Assembly: GCA_011525945.1 (NCBI GenBank)
Contig: WYBJ01000195.1
Span: 1-45,947 of the forward strand
Origin: Burkholderiaceae bacterium
Lineage (GTDB): Bacteria; Pseudomonadota; Gammaproteobacteria; Burkholderiales; WYBJ01
Direction: 5' to 3'
DNA: 45,947 nt
Below the pieces are notes generated by a model that saw nothing but the letters and a program-made list of their open reading frames with translations, was not told the DNA's origin and made no database searches. Shown here piece after piece: positions 22,303 to 33,073 of this stretch; within the stretch, counting starts at the first letter, position 1, and each line of letters starts with the position of its first letter. Both the position numbers and the translations under genes were made by a program.

Positions 22303-23598
22303 CTAGCGCGCCTCGCCCATCCAGCGCACGACGCCGGCCACGCCGTCCACCGCCATGCGCGCACCGTCAGGGATTCGTTGCGTCGCTTCGTGCACGCCGA
22401 GCACCATCGGGATGCCGCGTTCGCGTGCGAGCGATGCGAGGTGCGAGGTGCTTCCGCCCAGCTCCGAGACGAGCCCGGCAAGGCGCGGCAGCACCTGGCT
22501 GAGCGCCGGCCCGGCCACCTTGGTGACCAGGATGTCACCTGGCGCGACGCGCGCCAGTTCGCACTCGCAATTGACGACCACGGCGCGACCTTCGCCCCAG
22601 CCGATGCCGGCCGGGTGGCCGTTCAAGCGCGGATGATGCAACCACGCCTTGTCGGCCTTCTGCGCAGCGCGCATGCGTAGCGGCCGCGCCTGCAACAGCT
22701 TGAATCCTTCCTCGTCGAGCGCCCACTCGATCTCGACCGGCATGTTCATGAACCCGGCGATGGCCTTCATCATTCGGCCGAGTTCGGCCGCTTGCCCACG
22801 ATCGAGGCAGGGGGTCGTCGTCAATGCCTTGGGGACGAGGCGCGCCATGGGCTCGGCACGATGCGTGCAGCCGACGCTATGATCCTTGCGTCCTGCGACA
22901 ACTTCCGACACTTCGCCCTCGGCGCTTAGCTGATAGCGGTCGGGCGTCACCTCGCCTTGTGCGATCGACGAACCGAGGCCCCAGGTTGCGCTCAATAGCA
23001 TGCCGCCATCGGCTGTCTGGCTCATACCGCCACCCGCGGCGCGTGCGCTGATCAGAGGCTGCACCAACACAGCCATCGCCGTGTCGGCTGGGTCAAGCCC
23101 GTGTGTGGCCATGTAGCGCAGCGCGCGCGTCGCCCACAGCGCCCCCCAGCAGGCGCGCACCGCAGTCATGAACTCCTGCTCGTCTTCGATGCCGAGAAAA
23201 CTTTCGAACTGGCCGGCGAAGCTCGCGCCCTCGCGGTCTTCCACCAGGGCGGACGAGCGCACGACCAGCAGCGCCCCCGTTTCATCGGCCAGTCGCCTGC
23301 GCGCGGCGACCAGCGGCTCGAGAATTTCTGCAATGAGCGGCCGGTCGAGCAACCCCAGCTTCATGTCCAGCGCGTTGCGCCGCGCGCGCACCGCATCGTC
23401 AGTGGCGAACGCGCCGCGCGCCGAGCTCTCGAGTCCGAGGGCTTTTACCTGCGCACGATAGGCAGCCGCGGTCAGGCAGAAGCCGCGCGGAACCGGGAAG
23501 CCCGCCCGCTGCAACGCAGCCTGATTGGCCGCCTTGGGACCGACCCGGCTTGGGTCGCAGGATTCCGGTGTGCCGAGCTCGAGGATGTAATTGAACAT
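22303..23598 (-). CDS. PEP-synthase-like phosphotransferase without the PEP/pyruvate barrel
   Basis: 431 residues with two recognisable parts. Residues 1-310 are an ATP-grasp pyruvate phosphate dikinase N-domain: GPKAANQAALQRAG, VRSSALVEDREGASFAGQFESFLG, and VEIEWALDEEG with LLQARPL at the end. Residues 340-430 are the swivelling phosphohistidine domain: GDILVTKVAGP, then the phosphoryl-carrying His 386 in GGSTSHLASLARERGIPMVLG. The C-terminal alpha/beta barrel that binds PEP/pyruvate in PpsA (about 790 residues) is missing, so His-P must be passed to another acceptor, as in rifampicin phosphotransferase-type layouts. ATG 23598 has no clear ribosome-binding site. Function not assignable. Confidence 0.82.
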   Translation of the reverse strand: MFNYILELGTPESCDPSRVGPKAANQAALQRAGFPVPRGFCLTAAAYRAQVKALGLESSARGAFATDDAVRARRNALDMKLGLLDRPLIAEILEPLVAARRRLADETGALLVVRSSALVEDREGASFAGQFESFLGIEDEQEFMTAVRACWGALWATRALRYMATHGLDPADTAMAVLVQPLISARAAGGGMSQTADGGMLLSATWGLGSSIAQGEVTPDRYQLSAEGEVSEVVAGRKDHSVGCTHRAEPMARLVPKALTTTPCLDRGQAAELGRMMKAIAGFMNMPVEIEWALDEEGFKLLQARPLRMRAAQKADKAWLHHPRLNGHPAGIGWGEGRAVVVNCECELARVAPGDILVTKVAGPALSQVLPRLAGLVSELGGSTSHLASLARERGIPMVLGVHEATQRIPDGARMAVDGVAGVVRWMGEAR

Positions 23599-23808: not shown

Positions 23809-25077
23809 TCAGCGTCCGGCAAGCGTGGAATACCCCGGCATCGGATCGACCACGGTGATCTGCTCCACCGGGAAGTTGGAGATGATCTCGACCTTGTCCT
23901 TGTGCACGATCAGCATTTCTTCGATACGCACACCCCACTGGTGCATCTTGCCGTGCTGGGTCTCCAAGGCGAACACCATGCCTTCCTGGATCTCCACCGG
24001 ATGGTCCAGCGACCAGATGCGCGAGATGACAGGCGGATCGTACTGTGCCAGTCCAAGCCCATGACCCCACAGGTTGGCCGCGGCCTGGTCCTCGTCCTTG
24101 TAACCCCAGGTCTCCATCGCGGAAGGCCACTTGGAGGCAATGTCGCGGGTGGTCGCACCGACCTTCACTTCCTTGATCGAATCGTACAGCCACTTCAGCG
24201 CCGTCGCGTAGACATCCTTCTGCTCCTGCGTCGGTTCCTTGCCCGCGCAGTAGGTTCGGTAATAACACGACTTGTAGCCATTCCAGGTGAGTGCCGCCAG
24301 ATCCATGAAGACGATGTCGCCAGGTTTGACGATGCGATCCGAGAAATTACGCCAGTTGGGCCAGGTGTTCGGACCCGAGGAGACGATGACGTCCTCGACG
24401 TCCTCCATTCCGGGAATGTTGTAGAGGTACTCCATGATATGCGCGGTGAGCTGGTTCTCGGTGCGCCCAGGTTGCAGGAATTTCATGAACTCCCAATGCG
24501 CCGCATCCCCGATCGCGCCCACCATACGCAGGCACTCCTGCTCGTCGGCGTTCTTCACCGCGCGCGCCTCCATCATCGGTGACATGCCGTCGGTCCACTC
24601 GATGCCTTCCTCCTTGAAGATCTGGATCATGTTGATGTCGACGAAGTCGACACCAAGCTTCATGCCCGAGACGTTGCTCTTTTTCATCTCCTGCTTGATC
24701 GCGTTAGTGAACTTGCGCACCTGCTGCAGCGAGGCAGGACCGGCGGCGCCTTTGATCCAGGCGTACGACCAGCGCACGTTCTCCTTCGGAATCCAGGGTG
24801 AGTGGCGTTCGATCTGGAAGCCGATATCGCCCTGCTCGAACAGCACCGGCTTGTCGTCGCCGCACAACATGGCATAGCGCAACCCGGGTTTGAGTCGATT
24901 CCAACCCGGGGTGAGCGTGCTCGTGACGTAACGGACGTTCTCGTCGTACATGAGCAGCATGGCGCCCAGACCGTGTGCCTTCATGCGGCTTCGCGCGCGC
25001 TCGAGGCGGTAGTTGCGAAGGCGCTCCCAGTTGACCCGCTGTTGCCAATCCAGACCCACCATTCCGAAATTTGCCAC
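23809..25077 (-). CDS. M24-fold (Xaa-Pro peptidase/creatinase-like) protein with an altered metal site
   Basis: 422-residue protein with the two-domain layout of creatinase/prolidase enzymes: N-terminal domain to about residue 165, then the pita-bread catalytic domain. Aligning motifs by eye, metal ligands Asp 259 (VFMDLAA), His 339 (GHGLGL), Glu 372 (ALETQHG) and Glu 386 or 387 (RIEEML) are present. The bridging Asp of the usual GYxSDxTRT is Cys 271 here (GYKSCYYRT). It may therefore be a metal-free hydrolase like creatinase, a single-metal enzyme, or a lyase of the DddP type. The start is GTG 25077 with GGAGG six bases upstream. It follows the hydantoinase/acetone-carboxylase-type remnant by 108 bases on the same strand and may once have been part of that operon. 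Confidence 0.85.
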   Translation of the reverse strand: MANFGMVGLDWQQRVNWERLRNYRLERARSRMKAHGLGAMLLMYDENVRYVTSTLTPGWNRLKPGLRYAMLCGDDKPVLFEQGDIGFQIERHSPWIPKENVRWSYAWIKGAAGPASLQQVRKFTNAIKQEMKKSNVSGMKLGVDFVDINMIQIFKEEGIEWTDGMSPMMEARAVKNADEQECLRMVGAIGDAAHWEFMKFLQPGRTENQLTAHIMEYLYNIPGMEDVEDVIVSSGPNTWPNWRNFSDRIVKPGDIVFMDLAALTWNGYKSCYYRTYCAGKEPTQEQKDVYATALKWLYDSIKEVKVGATTRDIASKWPSAMETWGYKDEDQAAANLWGHGLGLAQYDPPVISRIWSLDHPVEIQEGMVFALETQHGKMHQWGVRIEEMLIVHKDKVEIISNFPVEQITVVDPMPGYSTLAGR

Positions 25078-25185
25078 GTCGATCCTCCAGTCAGAGCGAA
25101 TGATGCGCGATCGCAGTCACGCGGCGCCGCGATCCGAAGCACGAAAAATTGTACCACGCGCCCGCGGCATGTCCGGACAAAAGAT

Positions 25186-25305
25186 TCAGCCCGCAAGCTC
25201 GATGTCGTGCAGCACCGGATCATGCTCGAGCGCGACCTCGTTCTCGATCAGACGCCCGCAGCCCGGACAGAAGAATTGGCGAAAAACCGGCCGGGCATCG
25301 ATAAA
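25186..25305 (-). pseudogene. 3' remnant of an acetone-carboxylase gamma-like gene
   Basis: In a frame different from the upstream hydantoinase-B piece, the minus strand reads VFRQFFCPGCGRLIENEVA and then a DPVLHDIEL ending before a stop at 25186. The CxxC knuckle followed by E-V-A and HDIEL is what I know from small gamma subunits of acetone/acetophenone-carboxylase-type enzymes. Only about 35 C-terminal residues survive, and no start codon or N-terminal half remains. The piece is joined directly to the hydantoinase-B fragment, as expected if one deletion removed the end of one gene and the start of the next. Confidence 0.6.
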
Positions 25306-25711
25306 ACGCGCGCTCGCCGTTGTCGAGGATGCGCTTCATCACCGCCTTGACCGCGCCGGCACCGTAGCGTCGGATGAGCGCAACAACGCGGTCCCGGGCA
25401 GTGGTGTTGCCGGCGAGTTGGGCGCGGAAGTCGAGCGCGACCGCGGCGGGCTTGCGCGAGGCACGCAGGTACAGCTCCTCGATGTCGCGCCGGACGCAAT
25501 CGCCCTCGACGATCTTCACCGGCGGAATCAGGATACCCTCGTCGAACGCGTCGCGCGCCGCGGGGCAGAAACTCCCGGGCGGGATGCCGCCGATATCGTA
25601 TTGATGCAGGCAGTTGGTGACCCAGCAGAACAGCGCCCGCTCCCAGACGTATGGCTTGTTGCGACCGTCGAACAGGCCATCGGAGATGGCGCTCAAGCGT
25701 GCGGGGGTCAT
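25290..25711 (-). pseudogene. Hydantoinase B / acetone carboxylase alpha-type remnant
   Basis: The reading frame starts at ATG 25711, sharing ATGA with the end of the hydantoinase-A remnant as in intact hyuAB operons. Most of the conserved N-terminal domain is lacking. What remains is an internal block: HQYDIGGIPPGSF, DEGILIPPVKIVEGD, RRDIEELYLRASRKP, LDFRAQLAGN and VVALIRRYGAGAV. Intact HyuB-type proteins have 550-780 residues, whereas here about 140 are recognisable. After DNGERAFY the frame loses homology and runs out at 25220, with the gamma-like tail continuing in another frame. Not expected to be functional. Confidence 0.72.
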
Positions 25712-26264
25712 GAGGTGCTTTCGAACGTCAGAACGAAGTTACCGAATTCGTCGACATGAAAGCGGACGCCCGGCTGGACCACGACCGTCGTAGTGCACGT
25801 TTCCATGATCGCCGGGCCGGTCAAGGCATTGCCCGCAAGCAGTTTATCGCCGTCGTACACGGCGGTGGCAACGAGCGCTCTGGCCTCAGACCACCAGATG
25901 GCGCGCGTGCATCCGCTCATGCGCTTCGCGCCTCAGTGCGGCAACGATCGCATCGATGCGCGCGGCATCGAACGGCGTGGCCAGGATCTCGGCATGTTCG
26001 AGGATGTGCAATACGTCGGCTACCGCGGCGCCGAAGGCACACCAGGTCGATGCCGCCTCCTTCTGTGGCACGACGACGCGCCCGATACCGAGCTCGCGTG
26101 CAAACGCGCCCGCGCTGTCGGGCCCTACGCTAATGCGCTGCGATTCGGCGTCGACTCGAACCAGACTACCGCCGCCGCTGCCGATCGATGACGACGCAAT
26201 CGGTGAACGTGCCGCCGATGTCGATACCGACTAGGAAACCGGTCGCGTGATCGGCCACAGGCAT
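25708..26264 (-). pseudogene. Hydantoinase A / acetone carboxylase beta-type remnant with several internal deletions
   Basis: Four recognisable pieces of a roughly 700-residue HyuA-type protein lie in the right order within 557 bases. (1) From ATG 26264, FLVGIDIGGTFTDCVVIDR, the ATPase-type N-terminus, which hits a stop at 26166. (2) In another frame from about 26180, GSGGGSLVRVD and VGPDSAGA, the central phosphate loop. (3) Fused to it, ELGIGRVVVPQ and ADVLHILEHAEIL, stopping at 25886. (4) In a further frame, VYDGDKLLAGNALTGPAIME and VVVQPGVRFHVDEFGNFVL, the C-terminus, stopping at 25708. At least three deletions and two frame changes are needed to explain this. Confidence 0.75.
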
Positions 26265-26604
26265 CACGTCGAGAGCGCATACCCCGGCATCGCGGGCACG
26301 CTCGATCGATCCCGGCGGTTGCGAGCTTCCGGCGTCATTGCAAAGGCCACGATGATCCTCCCCTTCGGCGAGGCATGGTAGCGGCTCCCGTGCCGCGATG
26401 TCCATCTGCGCCGCAGAATCGTTCCGGATGGTTGTGCGGGCACAGAATCAAGGTCGCGCGCAGCGAGCAGGATGTCCGCCACGACCTGCTGCGTGATGGG
26501 GCGAGCGCCTAGCCCGATAACGACAGCGCGTGTTACAGTCCTCGCATCGCTGACACTTCCAACACCGACGCCGGAACAACGCGCCGGCGCCGGGACGCGA
26601 CCGC
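26265..26604. other. Divergent gap between the hydantoinase-A remnant and the cupin gene
   Basis: 340 bases without a gene I can name. The minus strand has a protein-like stretch at about 26445-26530 (AVVIGLGARPITQQ, then ADILLAARDLDSV) that could be one more gene scrap, but it has no start, no recognised family and no clear boundaries. No promoter with both hexamers was found for the cupin gene. Confidence 0.4.
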
Positions 26605-27114
26605 ATGCCGTTCTACCGCTTCGAGCAGTTCCAGAGCCGATTGCTCACCCCGCACCTGTCCAGCGGCGCGGCGCCCGTGATCGAAGGCCGCTATATGTCC
26701 TTCTGCCTTCTGCACAAAGAGGCGGGCACGGGTTCGGAGTTGCATTACCATCCGAATGAGCTGCTGATTTTTCCCATTCGAGGCAAGATCAATGCGATCG
26801 TCGGGACGGACCGACGCATCGTCGCGCCCGGCACGTTCGTGCACTGCCCGGCATACGCGCGCCACTCGATGAAGGCGGCCGAAGACGGTCCGGTCGACTA
26901 TCTATACATCAAGGACATGATCGACGGTGAACGCAAGCGCTGCGGGCCGGGGGACATCGCTCATCTGCCACGCGGCGGTACTTGGACGCTGGTCGCATCC
27001 GCACCGGCGACTCGATATGCTGCGGTGCGCTCGACTGCGTGGCTCGAGCGCAAGATCGATACCATGAGCCCCGAAGAGCAGGCGCGGGCGCGAGTCGAGC
27101 GCAAGGCAAACTAA
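26605..27114 (+). CDS. Cupin domain protein
   Basis: 169 residues with a single cupin barrel. Cupin motif 1 is GSELHYHPNELLIFPIRG, with His/His/Glu ligands for a metal. Motif 2 follows as PGTFVHCPAYARHSM, with the second His. After residue 110 comes a non-cupin extension (GDIAHLPRGGTW) and a charged helical C-terminus. Small cupins of this type are dioxygenases, isomerases or sensor-like proteins; nothing here fixes which. First gene of a tight plus-strand series: 12 bases separate it from the next gene. The ribosome-binding site is weak. Confidence 0.82.
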   Translation: MPFYRFEQFQSRLLTPHLSSGAAPVIEGRYMSFCLLHKEAGTGSELHYHPNELLIFPIRGKINAIVGTDRRIVAPGTFVHCPAYARHSMKAAEDGPVDYLYIKDMIDGERKRCGPGDIAHLPRGGTWTLVASAPATRYAAVRSTAWLERKIDTMSPEEQARARVERKAN

Positions 27115-27126
27115 TCGAAGGGAGGC

Positions 27127-28131
27127 ATGATGGGGCGGGCGAAGCCGCCGGCATTGCGCGTGGGATTCGTCGGCTTGGGCATCATCGGATCGGCGCTTTC
27201 CAAGCATCTGCTCGCAGCCGGATTCGATGTCAGCGGTTACGACACCGATGCGGCGCGGCGGGCTTTGCTGGGCGAACGTGGCGGTCGCCCGCTCGCTTCG
27301 GCGGCGGCAGTAGCGGCACGTGCTGACGTGGTGATCACGGCACTGGCGAGCTACGCGGCGTACGAGTCCGCCTATTTCGGTCCGGACGGCATCGCGCAGG
27401 GCGGCTGGCGCGCTAGCACGCGACAGACGCGGCGCGATCGCGCGCATGCGTCTCGGCGTGCGCTGCTCGTGGCCGACGTGAGTACGATGCCGCTCGAGCG
27501 CAAGACCGGCGCGCGCGAGCGCCTCGCGCAACGCGGTATTCGCATGCTCGATTGCCCGATCAGCGGAACTGGCGCGCAGGCGGAGAGCAAAGATATCGCC
27601 GTCTATGCGAGCGGTCCTGAGGCGGATGTGCGCGGCGTCTGGGCCGTGCTGGAAGGTTTCTCGCGCAAGGTTTGGTTCGTTGGCGAGTTCGGTGCGGGCT
27701 CGAAGCTGAAGTACGTGGCGAACCATCTGGTCACGGTTCACAACGTGGCCGCGGCGGAAGCGCTGACGCTCGGGATCAAATCCGGCCTCGAACCGCAATT
27801 GATGCTCGAAGCGCTGAGCAGCGGCGCAGGTACCTCGCGCATGCTGGAGGTGCGCGGAGCGCTCATGCTCGCAGACGACTACGAACGCCCGACGATGAAA
27901 TGCGACGTCTATCAGAAGGATATCGATATCATCGGGGATTTCGCCACGCGCCTGCGCTGTCCGACGCCGTTGTTCGATGCATCGCGCGCGCTCTATAGCG
28001 CCGCGCTGGCGCAAGGTCGAGACAAACAGGACACTGCGGCGGTATGCGCGGTATTGAAGCAGATGGCCGGAGTGGCGCCCGCGACGGCGCGCCCGGCGAC
28101 GGCAGTACGCACACGAACGCGAAAGGGGTAA
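27127..28131 (+). CDS. NAD(P)-dependent 3-hydroxyisobutyrate dehydrogenase-family enzyme
   Basis: 334-residue beta-hydroxyacid dehydrogenase. The Rossmann loop is GFVGLGIIGSALSKHL. The substrate-binding motif DCPISGTGAQAESK stands in place of the common D-A-P-V-S-G-G. The catalytic Lys region is GAGSKLKYVANHLVTVHN, and KDIDIIGDFA lies in the all-helical C-terminal half. Unusually, an Arg-rich insert of some 25 residues (about residues 91-116, GWRASTRQTRRDRAHASRRA) precedes the V-A-D-V-S-T strand. GGGAGG lies just before the ATG pair at 27127. It ends four bases before the LVIVD gene, so the two are cotranscribed. Substrate unknown. Confidence 0.87.
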   Translation: MMGRAKPPALRVGFVGLGIIGSALSKHLLAAGFDVSGYDTDAARRALLGERGGRPLASAAAVAARADVVITALASYAAYESAYFGPDGIAQGGWRASTRQTRRDRAHASRRALLVADVSTMPLERKTGARERLAQRGIRMLDCPISGTGAQAESKDIAVYASGPEADVRGVWAVLEGFSRKVWFVGEFGAGSKLKYVANHLVTVHNVAAAEALTLGIKSGLEPQLMLEALSSGAGTSRMLEVRGALMLADDYERPTMKCDVYQKDIDIIGDFATRLRCPTPLFDASRALYSAALAQGRDKQDTAAVCAVLKQMAGVAPATARPATAVRTRTRKG

Positions 28132-28135
28132 CGCA

Positions 28136-29380
28136 ATGAGTACGAGCATGAATGTCGGCAGCCAGGCCGACCGCACCTTGTCGTTGAACATGACACTTCT
28201 CTCTCACCACGAGCTGGACGGTTTTGGCGGAGTGGGCGAAGGGGTGGCGATGCAGATGGCCAAGGACGGCCGACGCATCCTCTGGCTCGCGCACGAGTCG
28301 GCGCCAAAGAACTTCACTGCTGTCGACGTGAGCGATCCGCGCGCGCCGAAGATGGTCGTGCAGACCGATCTGCCACACGCACAGGTGCGCTCCAACTCGC
28401 TCGAAGTCTCAGGCGATACCCTCGCTGTGGCCTACCAGACCAAGCAGGTCGGGATGAAGCCGGCCGGATTCGATTTGTTCGATATCAGCGTGCCGGAGAA
28501 GCCGCGTCTGATCGCGCACTTCGATGCCTCCGGGCCGCATTCGCGCGGAGCGCACTGCTTGTGGTTCGTCGATGGCGAAACCGTCCACATGGCCTCGGGC
28601 GCGGCGGATTTCCAGCCGCGCAATCCCAAGGACGATCAGTTCTACCGCATCATCGACGTGCGCAATCCGAGCAAACCGACCGAAGTCGGCCGCTGGTGGT
28701 ATCCCGGCACCCGCGAGGGCGACAGCGAGCCGCCGGTGCGGCGCATGCCGAAGTTCGATTCGGGCTACCGTGCGCACAACACCAATGCGTATCCCGAACG
28801 ACCCGATCGCGCTTACATCGGCTATATCGATGGCGGCGCGGTCATCCTCGACATTTCCGACAGGGCGCAGCCGAAGCTCGTGGCGAACTGGCGCCATTCG
28901 CCGCCGAACACCGGTTTCACCCACACCGTGATGCCGCTTCCCAAACGCGAACTGCTGATCGTGACCGACGAGTGCACAAAGGACGACGGCGCCGACTGGC
29001 CGAAGATGACCTGGGTGGTGGACAACCGCGACGAGACCAACCCCGTGCCGATCGCGACTTTTCCGCTGCCGCCGGTGGAGGTGTTCGCCAAGCGCGGCGG
29101 CCGCTACGGCTCGCACAACCTGCACGAGAACCCCCCGGTGAAGTGCGCGCATCGCGACGACCGGATCGTGCTCGCGACGTTCTTCAACGGCGGCATGCGG
29201 GCGTTCGATATCTCCAACCCTTACCAGCCGGTAGAGGTGGGTTACTTCGTTCCCGGCGCGCCGAAGATGTCGCCCAAGGGCTCGGTTCAGATCAACGACG
29301 TGTACTGGGACGATCGTGGCGTCGTGTTCTGTGTCGACCGCTTCGCGGGCGGATTGTATGCGGTGGAGATGAAGATCTAG
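28136..29380 (+). CDS. LVIVD-repeat beta-propeller protein, candidate metalloenzyme
   Basis: 414 residues, no signal peptide. At least six blades show the LVIVD repeat: TAVDVSDPRAP (61), FDLFDISVPEKP (112), RIIDVRNPSKP (171), VILDISDRAQP (236), WVVDNRDETNP (293) and RAFDISNPYQP (355). At the matching place of successive blades stand His 140 (RGAH), His 214 (YRAHN), His 263 (FTHT) and His 327 (GSHN), with His 330 nearby. This recalls the axial histidine metal centres of selenium-binding/methanethiol-oxidase and carotenoid-oxygenase propellers. Known members of the LVIVD family are mostly uncharacterised. A COG0523 metallochaperone-type GTPase starts six bases downstream. Fold secure, metal site inferred. 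Confidence 0.85.
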   Translation: MSTSMNVGSQADRTLSLNMTLLSHHELDGFGGVGEGVAMQMAKDGRRILWLAHESAPKNFTAVDVSDPRAPKMVVQTDLPHAQVRSNSLEVSGDTLAVAYQTKQVGMKPAGFDLFDISVPEKPRLIAHFDASGPHSRGAHCLWFVDGETVHMASGAADFQPRNPKDDQFYRIIDVRNPSKPTEVGRWWYPGTREGDSEPPVRRMPKFDSGYRAHNTNAYPERPDRAYIGYIDGGAVILDISDRAQPKLVANWRHSPPNTGFTHTVMPLPKRELLIVTDECTKDDGADWPKMTWVVDNRDETNPVPIATFPLPPVEVFAKRGGRYGSHNLHENPPVKCAHRDDRIVLATFFNGGMRAFDISNPYQPVEVGYFVPGAPKMSPKGSVQINDVYWDDRGVVFCVDRFAGGLYAVEMKI

Positions 29381-29386
29381 CGTTAC

Positions 29387-30466
29387 ATGAGCAGCAACGG
29401 ATTCACGCTTGCCGGCGGACGCGACCCGTTCGCCGGCCGCATCCCCATAAGCGTCATTACGGGCTTCCTCGGCAGCGGCAAGACCACGCTGCTGAAAAAG
29501 CTGCTGCGCCACCCGGAAATGTGCAACGCCGCCGTCATCGTCAACGAGTTCGGCGAGGAGTCCATCGACCATGAGCTTCTCGAAACGTCCTCCGAGCGCA
29601 TGGCGCTGCTCGACAACGGCTGCCTCTGCTGCACGGTACGCACCGATCTGCAGGAGACCCTGCGCGACATCCTCACCAAGCGCTTGCATGGTCAGGTGAT
29701 CCAGTTCGATCGCGTGTTCGTCGAGACCACGGGTCTGGCGGACCCCGCCCCCGTGGTACAGACGCTTGCAAGCGATTCGCTGCTGGCAGACAAGTTCCGA
29801 CTCGACTGCGTCGTCACATTGGTCGATGCGGTCAATGGCCTGCAGCAGCTCGACACATTGAACGAGCCGCTCAAGCAGGCCGCAATAGCCGATCGGCTGC
29901 TCTTGAGCAAGACCGATCTCGCCAGACCCGAGCAGGTGGCGGCGCTGCGAGCGCGGCTCGCCGACATCAATCCGCAGGCCGTGTTGATCGAGGTGGTGCA
30001 AGGCGAAGTCGATCCGGCGCTGTTGGTCGATGTCGGGCTCGCCACGCGCAACGTTCCGGCCGAGAAGCTCTCACGCTGGATCGGCCCGCTCGCCGCCCCG
30101 GTCGGCTCAAGCGGGGGCAGTGGACTCAGCCCGCACGCGGGACACTCATCCGGCATCGAATCGTTTTGCCTCTGGTTCGAGCGGCCGTTCACCTGGTCCT
30201 CGTTCGAGACCTGTATGACGGTGCTTACGTCGCTGCGCGGTCCCGATCTGTTGCGAGTCAAAGGCCTGGTCAACGTCGAAGGCGAGGCGGGGCCAGTGGT
30301 GGTGCAAGGCGTGCAGCACATCTTCCATCCGCCAGCCACGCTGCCCGCATGGAGCGACAGCGACCATCGCTCGCGCATCGTCTTCATCACGCGCCGGATC
30401 GAGCGCGAGACGATCGAAAACCTGTTCCGGGCAGTGGGTGCGCTCGGTACCATGCGGGCCGGTTAA
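29387..30466 (+). CDS. COG0523/CobW-family GTPase, probable metallochaperone
   Basis: 359-residue G3E GTPase. Walker A is TGFLGSGKTTLL (residues 25-36). The metal-binding CxCC is C79-L-C81-C82, followed by T-V-R. Walker B region VFVETTGLADP and the base-recognition motif LLLSKTDLA come next. A linker containing HAGHSSG precedes the C-terminal CobW_C domain (residues about 250-355), which ends IFITRRI-like. Members insert or deliver Zn, Co, Ni or Fe to client enzymes in a GTP-gated way. The gene follows the LVIVD propeller by six bases, so that protein is the most likely client. Metal identity cannot be told from sequence. Confidence 0.9.
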   Translation: MSSNGFTLAGGRDPFAGRIPISVITGFLGSGKTTLLKKLLRHPEMCNAAVIVNEFGEESIDHELLETSSERMALLDNGCLCCTVRTDLQETLRDILTKRLHGQVIQFDRVFVETTGLADPAPVVQTLASDSLLADKFRLDCVVTLVDAVNGLQQLDTLNEPLKQAAIADRLLLSKTDLARPEQVAALRARLADINPQAVLIEVVQGEVDPALLVDVGLATRNVPAEKLSRWIGPLAAPVGSSGGSGLSPHAGHSSGIESFCLWFERPFTWSSFETCMTVLTSLRGPDLLRVKGLVNVEGEAGPVVVQGVQHIFHPPATLPAWSDSDHRSRIVFITRRIERETIENLFRAVGALGTMRAG

Positions 30467-31794: not shown

Positions 31795-32586
31795 GTGTTT
31801 CCTGTCAATTACGTGCGAGCGAAATCGTTGAAGCATGCGGTCGAGCAGCTGGCTGCGAATCCGGACGCCAAGCTGCTGGCAGGCGGGATGACGCTGCTGC
31901 CAACGCTCAAACAACGGCTCGCGCGCCCATCGCACCTGATCGACATCGGCGCCTTGCGTGCACTGCGGGCGATCAAGCGCAGTCGGGACAAACTATCGAT
32001 CGGCGCCGGCGTACGCCACTACGAGGTTGCAGCCTCGGCGCTGGTGCGCGAGGCCATTCCGGCGCTTGCGTACCTCGCGGGCCAGATCGGCGATCCGCAA
32101 GTGCGCAACCTTGGCACGATCGGCGGCTCGGTAGCCAATAACGACCCGGCCGCCGACTATCCGGCGGCAGTACTCGGGCTCGCTGCAACGATCCTCACCA
32201 ACAGGCGCCGCATCAAGGCGCAGGACTACTTTCAGGGCATGTTCGCGACCGCTCTGGAGGACGGTGAGATCATCACGCGGATCGTGTTTCCGCTGCCGAA
32301 GAAGGCGGCCTACGAGAAATTCCGCCACCCCGCTTCGGGCTATGCGATGACCGCCGTGTTCGTGGCGGTTACGGGGCGTGGTGTCAGGGTTGCGGTGACC
32401 GGAGCAGGGCCTGGCGTATTCCGCTGGACCAAGGCCGAGCGCGCGCTCGGCAAGCATCTCGCGCCCGAAGCGGTCGAGAAACTGAGCGTCGATGCGCAGG
32501 CGATGAACGAAGACATGCATGCCTCACGTGAATATCGCGCGAACCTGGTCAATGTCATGACCCGGCGCGCAGTCGCGAAGCTGTAA
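31795..32586 (+). CDS. FAD-binding medium subunit of a molybdenum hydroxylase (CoxM/XdhB family)
   Basis: 263 residues. It carries electrons between the 2Fe-2S subunit and NAD or quinone in xanthine-dehydrogenase/CO-dehydrogenase-type complexes. FAD-binding motifs are AGGMTLLPTLK (near 30) and QVRNLGTIGGSVANNDPAADYPAA (near 103-125), followed by the CoxM-type C-terminal domain. The start is a GTG at 31795 preceded by an excellent AAGGAGG. The small iron-sulfur subunit follows 19 bases on, but the molybdopterin-binding large subunit is not in this window. Substrate cannot be inferred without it. Confidence 0.9.
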   Translation: MFPVNYVRAKSLKHAVEQLAANPDAKLLAGGMTLLPTLKQRLARPSHLIDIGALRALRAIKRSRDKLSIGAGVRHYEVAASALVREAIPALAYLAGQIGDPQVRNLGTIGGSVANNDPAADYPAAVLGLAATILTNRRRIKAQDYFQGMFATALEDGEIITRIVFPLPKKAAYEKFRHPASGYAMTAVFVAVTGRGVRVAVTGAGPGVFRWTKAERALGKHLAPEAVEKLSVDAQAMNEDMHASREYRANLVNVMTRRAVAKL

Positions 32587-32605
32587 TCACACCACAGGAC
32601 GATAA

Positions 32606-33073
<468 letters not shown>

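Follow-up and report, generated by a model that had tools for sequence, protein, structure and literature searches.

A conserved pairing of LVIVD beta-propeller and COG0523 GTPase genes suggests a cytosolic metallo-propeller enzyme with its own metal-delivery partner

There is some precedent for a genomic link between beta-propellers and CobW-family GTPases. The zinc-binding beta-propeller AztD, whose central pore contains three histidines, is often encoded near CobW genes; it is eight-bladed, periplasmic, and linked to zinc ABC transporters (PMC6689063). COG0523 subfamily 5 genes of prokaryotes cluster with genes for WD40 propellers, znuABC, and creatinase (Haas et al. 2009, PMC2770081), and one study indicates that CobW-related proteins prefer zinc (PMC7895991). 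A further metallo-propeller, SELENBP1/methanethiol oxidase, is seven-bladed and holds a copper site of His, Asp, and Glu residues in a cavity (PMC10362175). For most COG0523 GTPases, a client enzyme is yet to be proven, and a literature search found no publication on LVIVD propellers and COG0523 together. Here, we analyzed a 45,947-nucleotide stretch of a Burkholderiaceae genome (the window), in which a gene for an LVIVD propeller directly precedes one for a COG0523 GTPase. With a probability of roughly 60%, the propeller is a cytosolic metalloenzyme, probably a hydrolase, with the GTPase as its dedicated partner.

The source assembly (339 contigs, 87% complete) carries the window as contig C160 and encodes three other LVIVD relatives; the closest relatives are mostly from Burkholderiales. 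An open reading frame scan found the cupin, 3-hydroxyisobutyrate dehydrogenase (HIBADH)-like, LVIVD, and COG0523 genes all intact and all on the forward strand (Table 1), with successive gaps of 12, 4, and 6 bases, and so agrees with the frames and spacing given in an earlier note made from the sequence alone. That note called the propeller fused to the GTPase, which are instead two adjacent, separate genes; the intact CxCC that it ascribed to the GTPase is seen as GCLCC. Alongside this motif and its cobW and CobW_C domains, the GTPase has an intact Walker A (GFLGSGKT) and ETTG, as expected of a COG0523 member, and SKTD in place of NKxD. Almost all linked relatives retain these motifs, and GCxCC is kept in 43 of the 43 linked GTPases listed. 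The GTPase falls short of every NCBIfam equivalog cut-off (PRK11537 scores best, with 216 of the 361 bits needed), so its metal is not readable from a family name. The HIBADH-like gene likewise scored under the cut-off of every equivalog model in a curated profile search.

Table 1. Genes and putative metal-binding residues or motifs of the window
Feature	Position	Strand	Evidence or conservation
Divergent M24-family metallohydrolase-like gene, which the GTPase could serve instead	23809..25077	-	Peptidase_M24 2.1e-37
Cupin, lineage-specific neighbor	26605..27114	+	Cupin_2 1.6e-12 (Pfam); found in a few relatives
HIBADH-like oxidoreductase, lineage-specific neighbor	27127..28131	+	NAD_binding_2 and NAD_binding_11 (Pfam)
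LVIVD seven-bladed beta-propeller, 414 aa, predicted cytosolic metalloenzyme	28136..29380	+	Pfam PF08309 3.8e-13
His140, blade 3 strand A	28553..28555	+	99% (86/87 homologs); Sb-PTE His258, blade-wise inspection
His214, blade 4 strand A	28775..28777	+	100% of 87 homologs; Sb-PTE His316, MAFFT
His263, blade 5 strand A	28922..28924	+	100% of 87 homologs; Sb-PTE His389, MAFFT
Glu279, end of blade 5 strand B	28970..28972	+	100%; Sb-PTE Glu407, gap-free local reading
His327, blade 6 strand A, G-S-H motif	29114..29116	+	100%; Sb-PTE His475, HMMER and MAFFT
COG0523/CobW-family GTPase, 359 aa, proposed dedicated metal-delivery partner	29387..30466	+	cobW 5.6e-49, CobW_C 5.9e-22
GCLCC metal-binding motif of the GTPase	29618..29632	+	Read in translation

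The propeller matches the Pfam LVIVD family with 49 bits (cut-off, 20.2), and AlphaFold2, supplied with an alignment of 33 relatives, returned a confident model (pLDDT 93.3, pTM 0.92) whose strands form seven blades of four strands each, the innermost strands starting at residues 33, 84, 138, 213, 262, about 323, and 386. In this predicted model, each innermost (A) strand of blades 3 to 6 has one of the four histidines at its start (His140, His214, His263, and His327, in this order), as the second or third residue of the strand or at the matching place. The equivalent position is held by Glu35 in blade 1, Asn87 in blade 2, and Asn387 in blade 7; Glu35 and Asn87 are kept in close relatives and altered in distant ones. 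Among 87 distinct LVIVD homologs from the fetched loci, with identity down to about 25%, the ring histidines are conserved at 99 to 100%. The other ten of the 14 histidines in the protein are conserved at 10 to 97%, the highest being His53, which, judged by strand position, also lies near the ring face. No hydrophobic signal was found at the N terminus of the propeller, which would place it in the cytosol together with the GTPase.

Sb-PTE, the haloalkylphosphorus hydrolase of Sphingobium sp. TCM1 (5hrm, 5ioj), is the sole PDB sequence match below 1e-5, and no other PDB sequence match agrees in fold as well. A profile search gave this match 4e-13, and Foldseek placed 5hrm at the top with 1e-17, compared with 6e-9 for generic WD40-type propellers, so that the seven-bladed fold has Sb-PTE as its best structural match. 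Sb-PTE was aligned via a plasmid copy essentially identical to 5ioj. An hhalign path between Sb-PTE and the LVIVD family had high probability yet plainly misaligned the middle blades and was rejected; for this reason, MAFFT and blade-wise reading were used. Three of the four ring histidines align automatically with Sb-PTE histidines in MAFFT, and His140 aligns with His258 by blade-wise reading. Glu279 pairs with Glu407 when the local strand is read without gaps (LIVTDE and LVGAAE, respectively); MAFFT is off by one residue there. Equivalents of the conserved histidines and of Glu407 are present on this combined reading. Of the metal ligands of Sb-PTE, which we take to include Glu201, His389, Glu407, and His475, Glu201 has no equivalent in the LVIVD protein, where blade-wise reading puts Val84 at the aligned place; thus, the site may differ in detail from that of Sb-PTE. 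The earlier note had claimed that the four histidines are equivalent on successive blades and recall the metal centers of other propellers, and had made this idea depend on their conservation; the strand list bears out the equivalence, conservation holds among the homologs, and the invariant set aligns with the histidines of a metallo-propeller. We consider a metal site on the LVIVD propeller highly likely.

The pairing with COG0523 was surveyed in 74 loci with an LVIVD identity of at least 55%, 69 of which have at least 900 bases downstream and some of which repeat one gene. A COG0523 gene lies within 400 bases of LVIVD on the same strand in 55 of the 74, nearly always directly downstream. 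Because same-genus genomes have four to five COG0523 genes each (E ≤ 1e-40), we estimate by hand a chance adjacency of ∼0.1% per gene. When 150 genomes of the order were searched with the GTPase, the best 17 matches (E ≤ 4e-115) all adjoined LVIVD; below these, scores fall to 1e-98, and only one later match was recognized beside LVIVD (genome G055, contig C31). A class-wide search outside the order yielded only one further genome. LVIVD-linked GTPases form one clade in a maximum-likelihood tree (support, 98/90, with the long Amorphus row excluded; with Amorphus, the linked label needs two changes), and this clade is separate from other COG0523 copies in the same genomes. Furthermore, pairwise identities of the LVIVD proteins and GTPases covary (Spearman 0.67; Mantel 0/2000), to which shared species history contributes. 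The survey thus agrees with the idea, put forward from the window alone, that the two genes are conserved neighbors, and a dedicated GTPase partner is likely.

Outside this clade, the pairing takes other forms. Amorphus coralli (L038) has a different, distant COG0523 gene upstream of LVIVD, the COG0523 gene is divergent from LVIVD in G392 (L161) and in the marine alphaproteobacterium G580 (L160), and on an Erwinia rhapontici plasmid, a ZigA-like COG0523 gene follows an LVIVD gene whose product is 36% identical. This altered gene order and altered COG0523 type indicate function rather than one frozen operon. The E. rhapontici pairing was dropped as an Erwinia-wide feature because it is absent from three other Erwinia plasmids. 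COG0523 at E ≤ 1e-20 was not found in seven LVIVD-bearing genomes (five of Rokubacteria and two of Chloroflexi), so the GTPase is not generally required. In marine alphaproteobacteria, COG0523 is located away from the main LVIVD gene, and acidobacterial LVIVD genes have no COG0523 alongside; given such lineages, the GTPase would help a subset only. Four acidobacterial relatives (L042, L044, L045, and L046) have hydrophobic, export-signal-like N termini, with an M24 gene close by in three cases.

The neighbors of LVIVD vary. Receptors of tripartite carboxylate transporters (TctC) are commonest; others include molybdenum hydroxylase subunits, Gfo/Idh oxidoreductases, CoA transferase, amidase, and alpha/beta hydrolases, as well as aldehyde-dehydrogenase-, creatininase-, cyclase-, and ThDP-like genes recognized by sequence reading only. 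Hydantoinase-like hyuA and hyuB are part of the cluster in close relatives, HIBADH lies alongside LVIVD in about 20 loci, and cupin does so in fewer. The suggestion that propeller, GTPase, cupin, and HIBADH-like gene form a metal-dependent catabolic module therefore stands in part: the transporters and the amide- and acid-processing neighbors speak for it, and it is weakened because cupin and HIBADH are conserved only in some lineages. A catabolic module for small acids or amides is plausible.

Further features of these loci were recorded. Between the M24 and cupin genes of the window (25078-26604) lies a hydantoinase B remnant (25220-25711, reverse strand) of 163 aa that covers profile positions 103-221 of 519; full-length hyuA-hyuB-like genes follow the GTPase in G055 (L165) and lie between cupin and M24 in G100 (L164). 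The M24 gene is 96 to 97% identical in G100 and G055, versus 88 to 92% for LVIVD. Its best curated model, the DMSP lyase DddP, reaches 88 bits, well short of the cut-off of 600. A half-length PPDK_N plus PEP-utilizers protein (22303-23598, reverse strand; 431 aa) adjoins two 2-hydroxyacid dehydrogenases and is conserved with the M24 gene in G055. CoxM and CoxS subunits are encoded at 31795-33073 (forward strand); no CoxL was found near them in the open reading frames scanned, and CoxL-type genes occur elsewhere in the genome (17 PF02738 matches). In marine alphaproteobacteria (L027, L031, L037, and L043), LVIVD is immediately preceded by tctC-tctB-tctA and a CoxL-type molybdenum hydroxylase gene. 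Enterobacterial plasmids (L086, L088, L091, L139, L140, and L141) carry an LVIVD subfamily, 33 to 36% identical, that follows a sugar ABC substrate-binding gene and, in Klebsiella, sits beside mtnK and mtnA.

The GTPase could instead serve a different metalloenzyme encoded in the cluster, above all the M24 protein (a dimetal hydrolase of the pita-bread fold), with LVIVD placed next to it for operon convenience. M24 is next door in the window, G100, and G055, and two marine alphaproteobacteria (G576 and G579; L158 and L159) have a row of M24, HIBADH, and COG0523 without an adjoining LVIVD, which makes M24 a rival client; the creatinase genes clustered with COG0523 subfamily 5 (PMC2770081) point the same way. 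However, the constant neighbor is LVIVD rather than M24, M24 is missing from the stretch read for most LVIVD-COG0523 pairs across five Burkholderiales families, and the GTPases adjoining M24 in the marine genomes are only about 42% identical to that of the window, all of which leaves M24 an unlikely client.

Other readings concern the histidine ring itself. In carotenoid cleavage oxygenases, a seven-bladed propeller has four histidines on its hub strands, an arrangement that the LVIVD protein is predicted to share. It could thus be a mononuclear four-histidine iron enzyme that cleaves C-C bonds with O2, with iron delivered by COG0523, as the COG0523 activator of Fe-type nitrile hydratase does (PMC2770081). 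This is quite unlikely, since the protein has no Pfam match to the carotenoid oxygenase family, to which it was therefore not assigned, and no carotenoid oxygenase is among the 50 fold matches listed, where Sb-PTE is clearly first. A role as an AztD-like metal carrier in zinc homeostasis, with the GTPase as a second zinc carrier, would suit the zinc-binding pore histidines of AztD and the CobW genes often found near it (PMC6689063); yet, AztD is periplasmic, eight-bladed, and tied to a zinc ABC system, whereas the LVIVD protein has seven blades and no signal peptide, its loci have no recognized zinc transporters, and the PDB search gave no sequence match to AztD. Membership in the AztD group was rejected on these features, and we regard the carrier role as very unlikely. 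That some LVIVD lineages are wholly without COG0523 would be compatible with a metal-free ring, structural or substrate-binding, and an adjacency due only to a shared mobile catabolic operon, but four invariant histidines and a glutamate aligned to a described binuclear site are then hard to explain, and such a ring seems most unlikely.

An invariant ring of hub histidines and the adjacency of the GTPase in many bacteria argue that the LVIVD protein is probably a metal enzyme with a dedicated loader. We propose that the mouth of the central channel would hold one or two divalent metal ions, bound by the hub-strand histidines of blades 3 to 6 together with Glu279, on the pattern of the remote homolog Sb-PTE. 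The bound metal would most likely activate water to hydrolyze an ester, lactone, or amide bond; hydrolase chemistry is moderately likely. The COG0523 GTPase of the same operon would load or guard this metal in the lineages that keep it, and the pair would work within gene clusters of differing makeup for the uptake and breakdown of small organic acids or amides. We see about an even chance that these proteins represent an undescribed but widespread family of cytosolic hydrolases built on a metallo-propeller, whose dedicated COG0523 insertase was taken from different COG0523 branches on more than one occasion. If so, they would constitute a new class of client for COG0523, whose clients are mostly unknown, and a biochemical function could be assigned to the large LVIVD propeller family. 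As conserved one-to-one genes with a strongly predicted metal site, the pair offers a clean, testable client.

Compared with known systems, the LVIVD protein is most like Sb-PTE, also a seven-bladed, LVIVD-like propeller, which carries a binuclear metal center; four histidines are at matching blade positions, a glutamate is on the B strand of blade 5, and the sequence homology is remote but significant. In contrast, identity in the structural alignment is about 17%, Sb-PTE has an N-terminal extension that the LVIVD protein lacks, and its gene stands in a different context, without a COG0523 partner. SELENBP1/methanethiol oxidase is likewise a seven-bladed propeller; assignment to it was rejected on NF052453 (NCBIfam; 17.8 versus 650 bits) and on SELENBP1 motifs that differ (HxxH, HH). 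As with AztD, a propeller with pore histidines has CobW-family genes nearby, and the GTPase shares its GCxCC and CobW_C architecture with the COG0523 subfamilies of Haas et al. (2009). The AztD and subfamily 5 precedents concern zinc homeostasis, whereas the pair described here has no recognized zinc transporter genes nearby, would occupy a different cellular place, and has a partner from another propeller family, LVIVD instead of the WD40 of subfamily 5.
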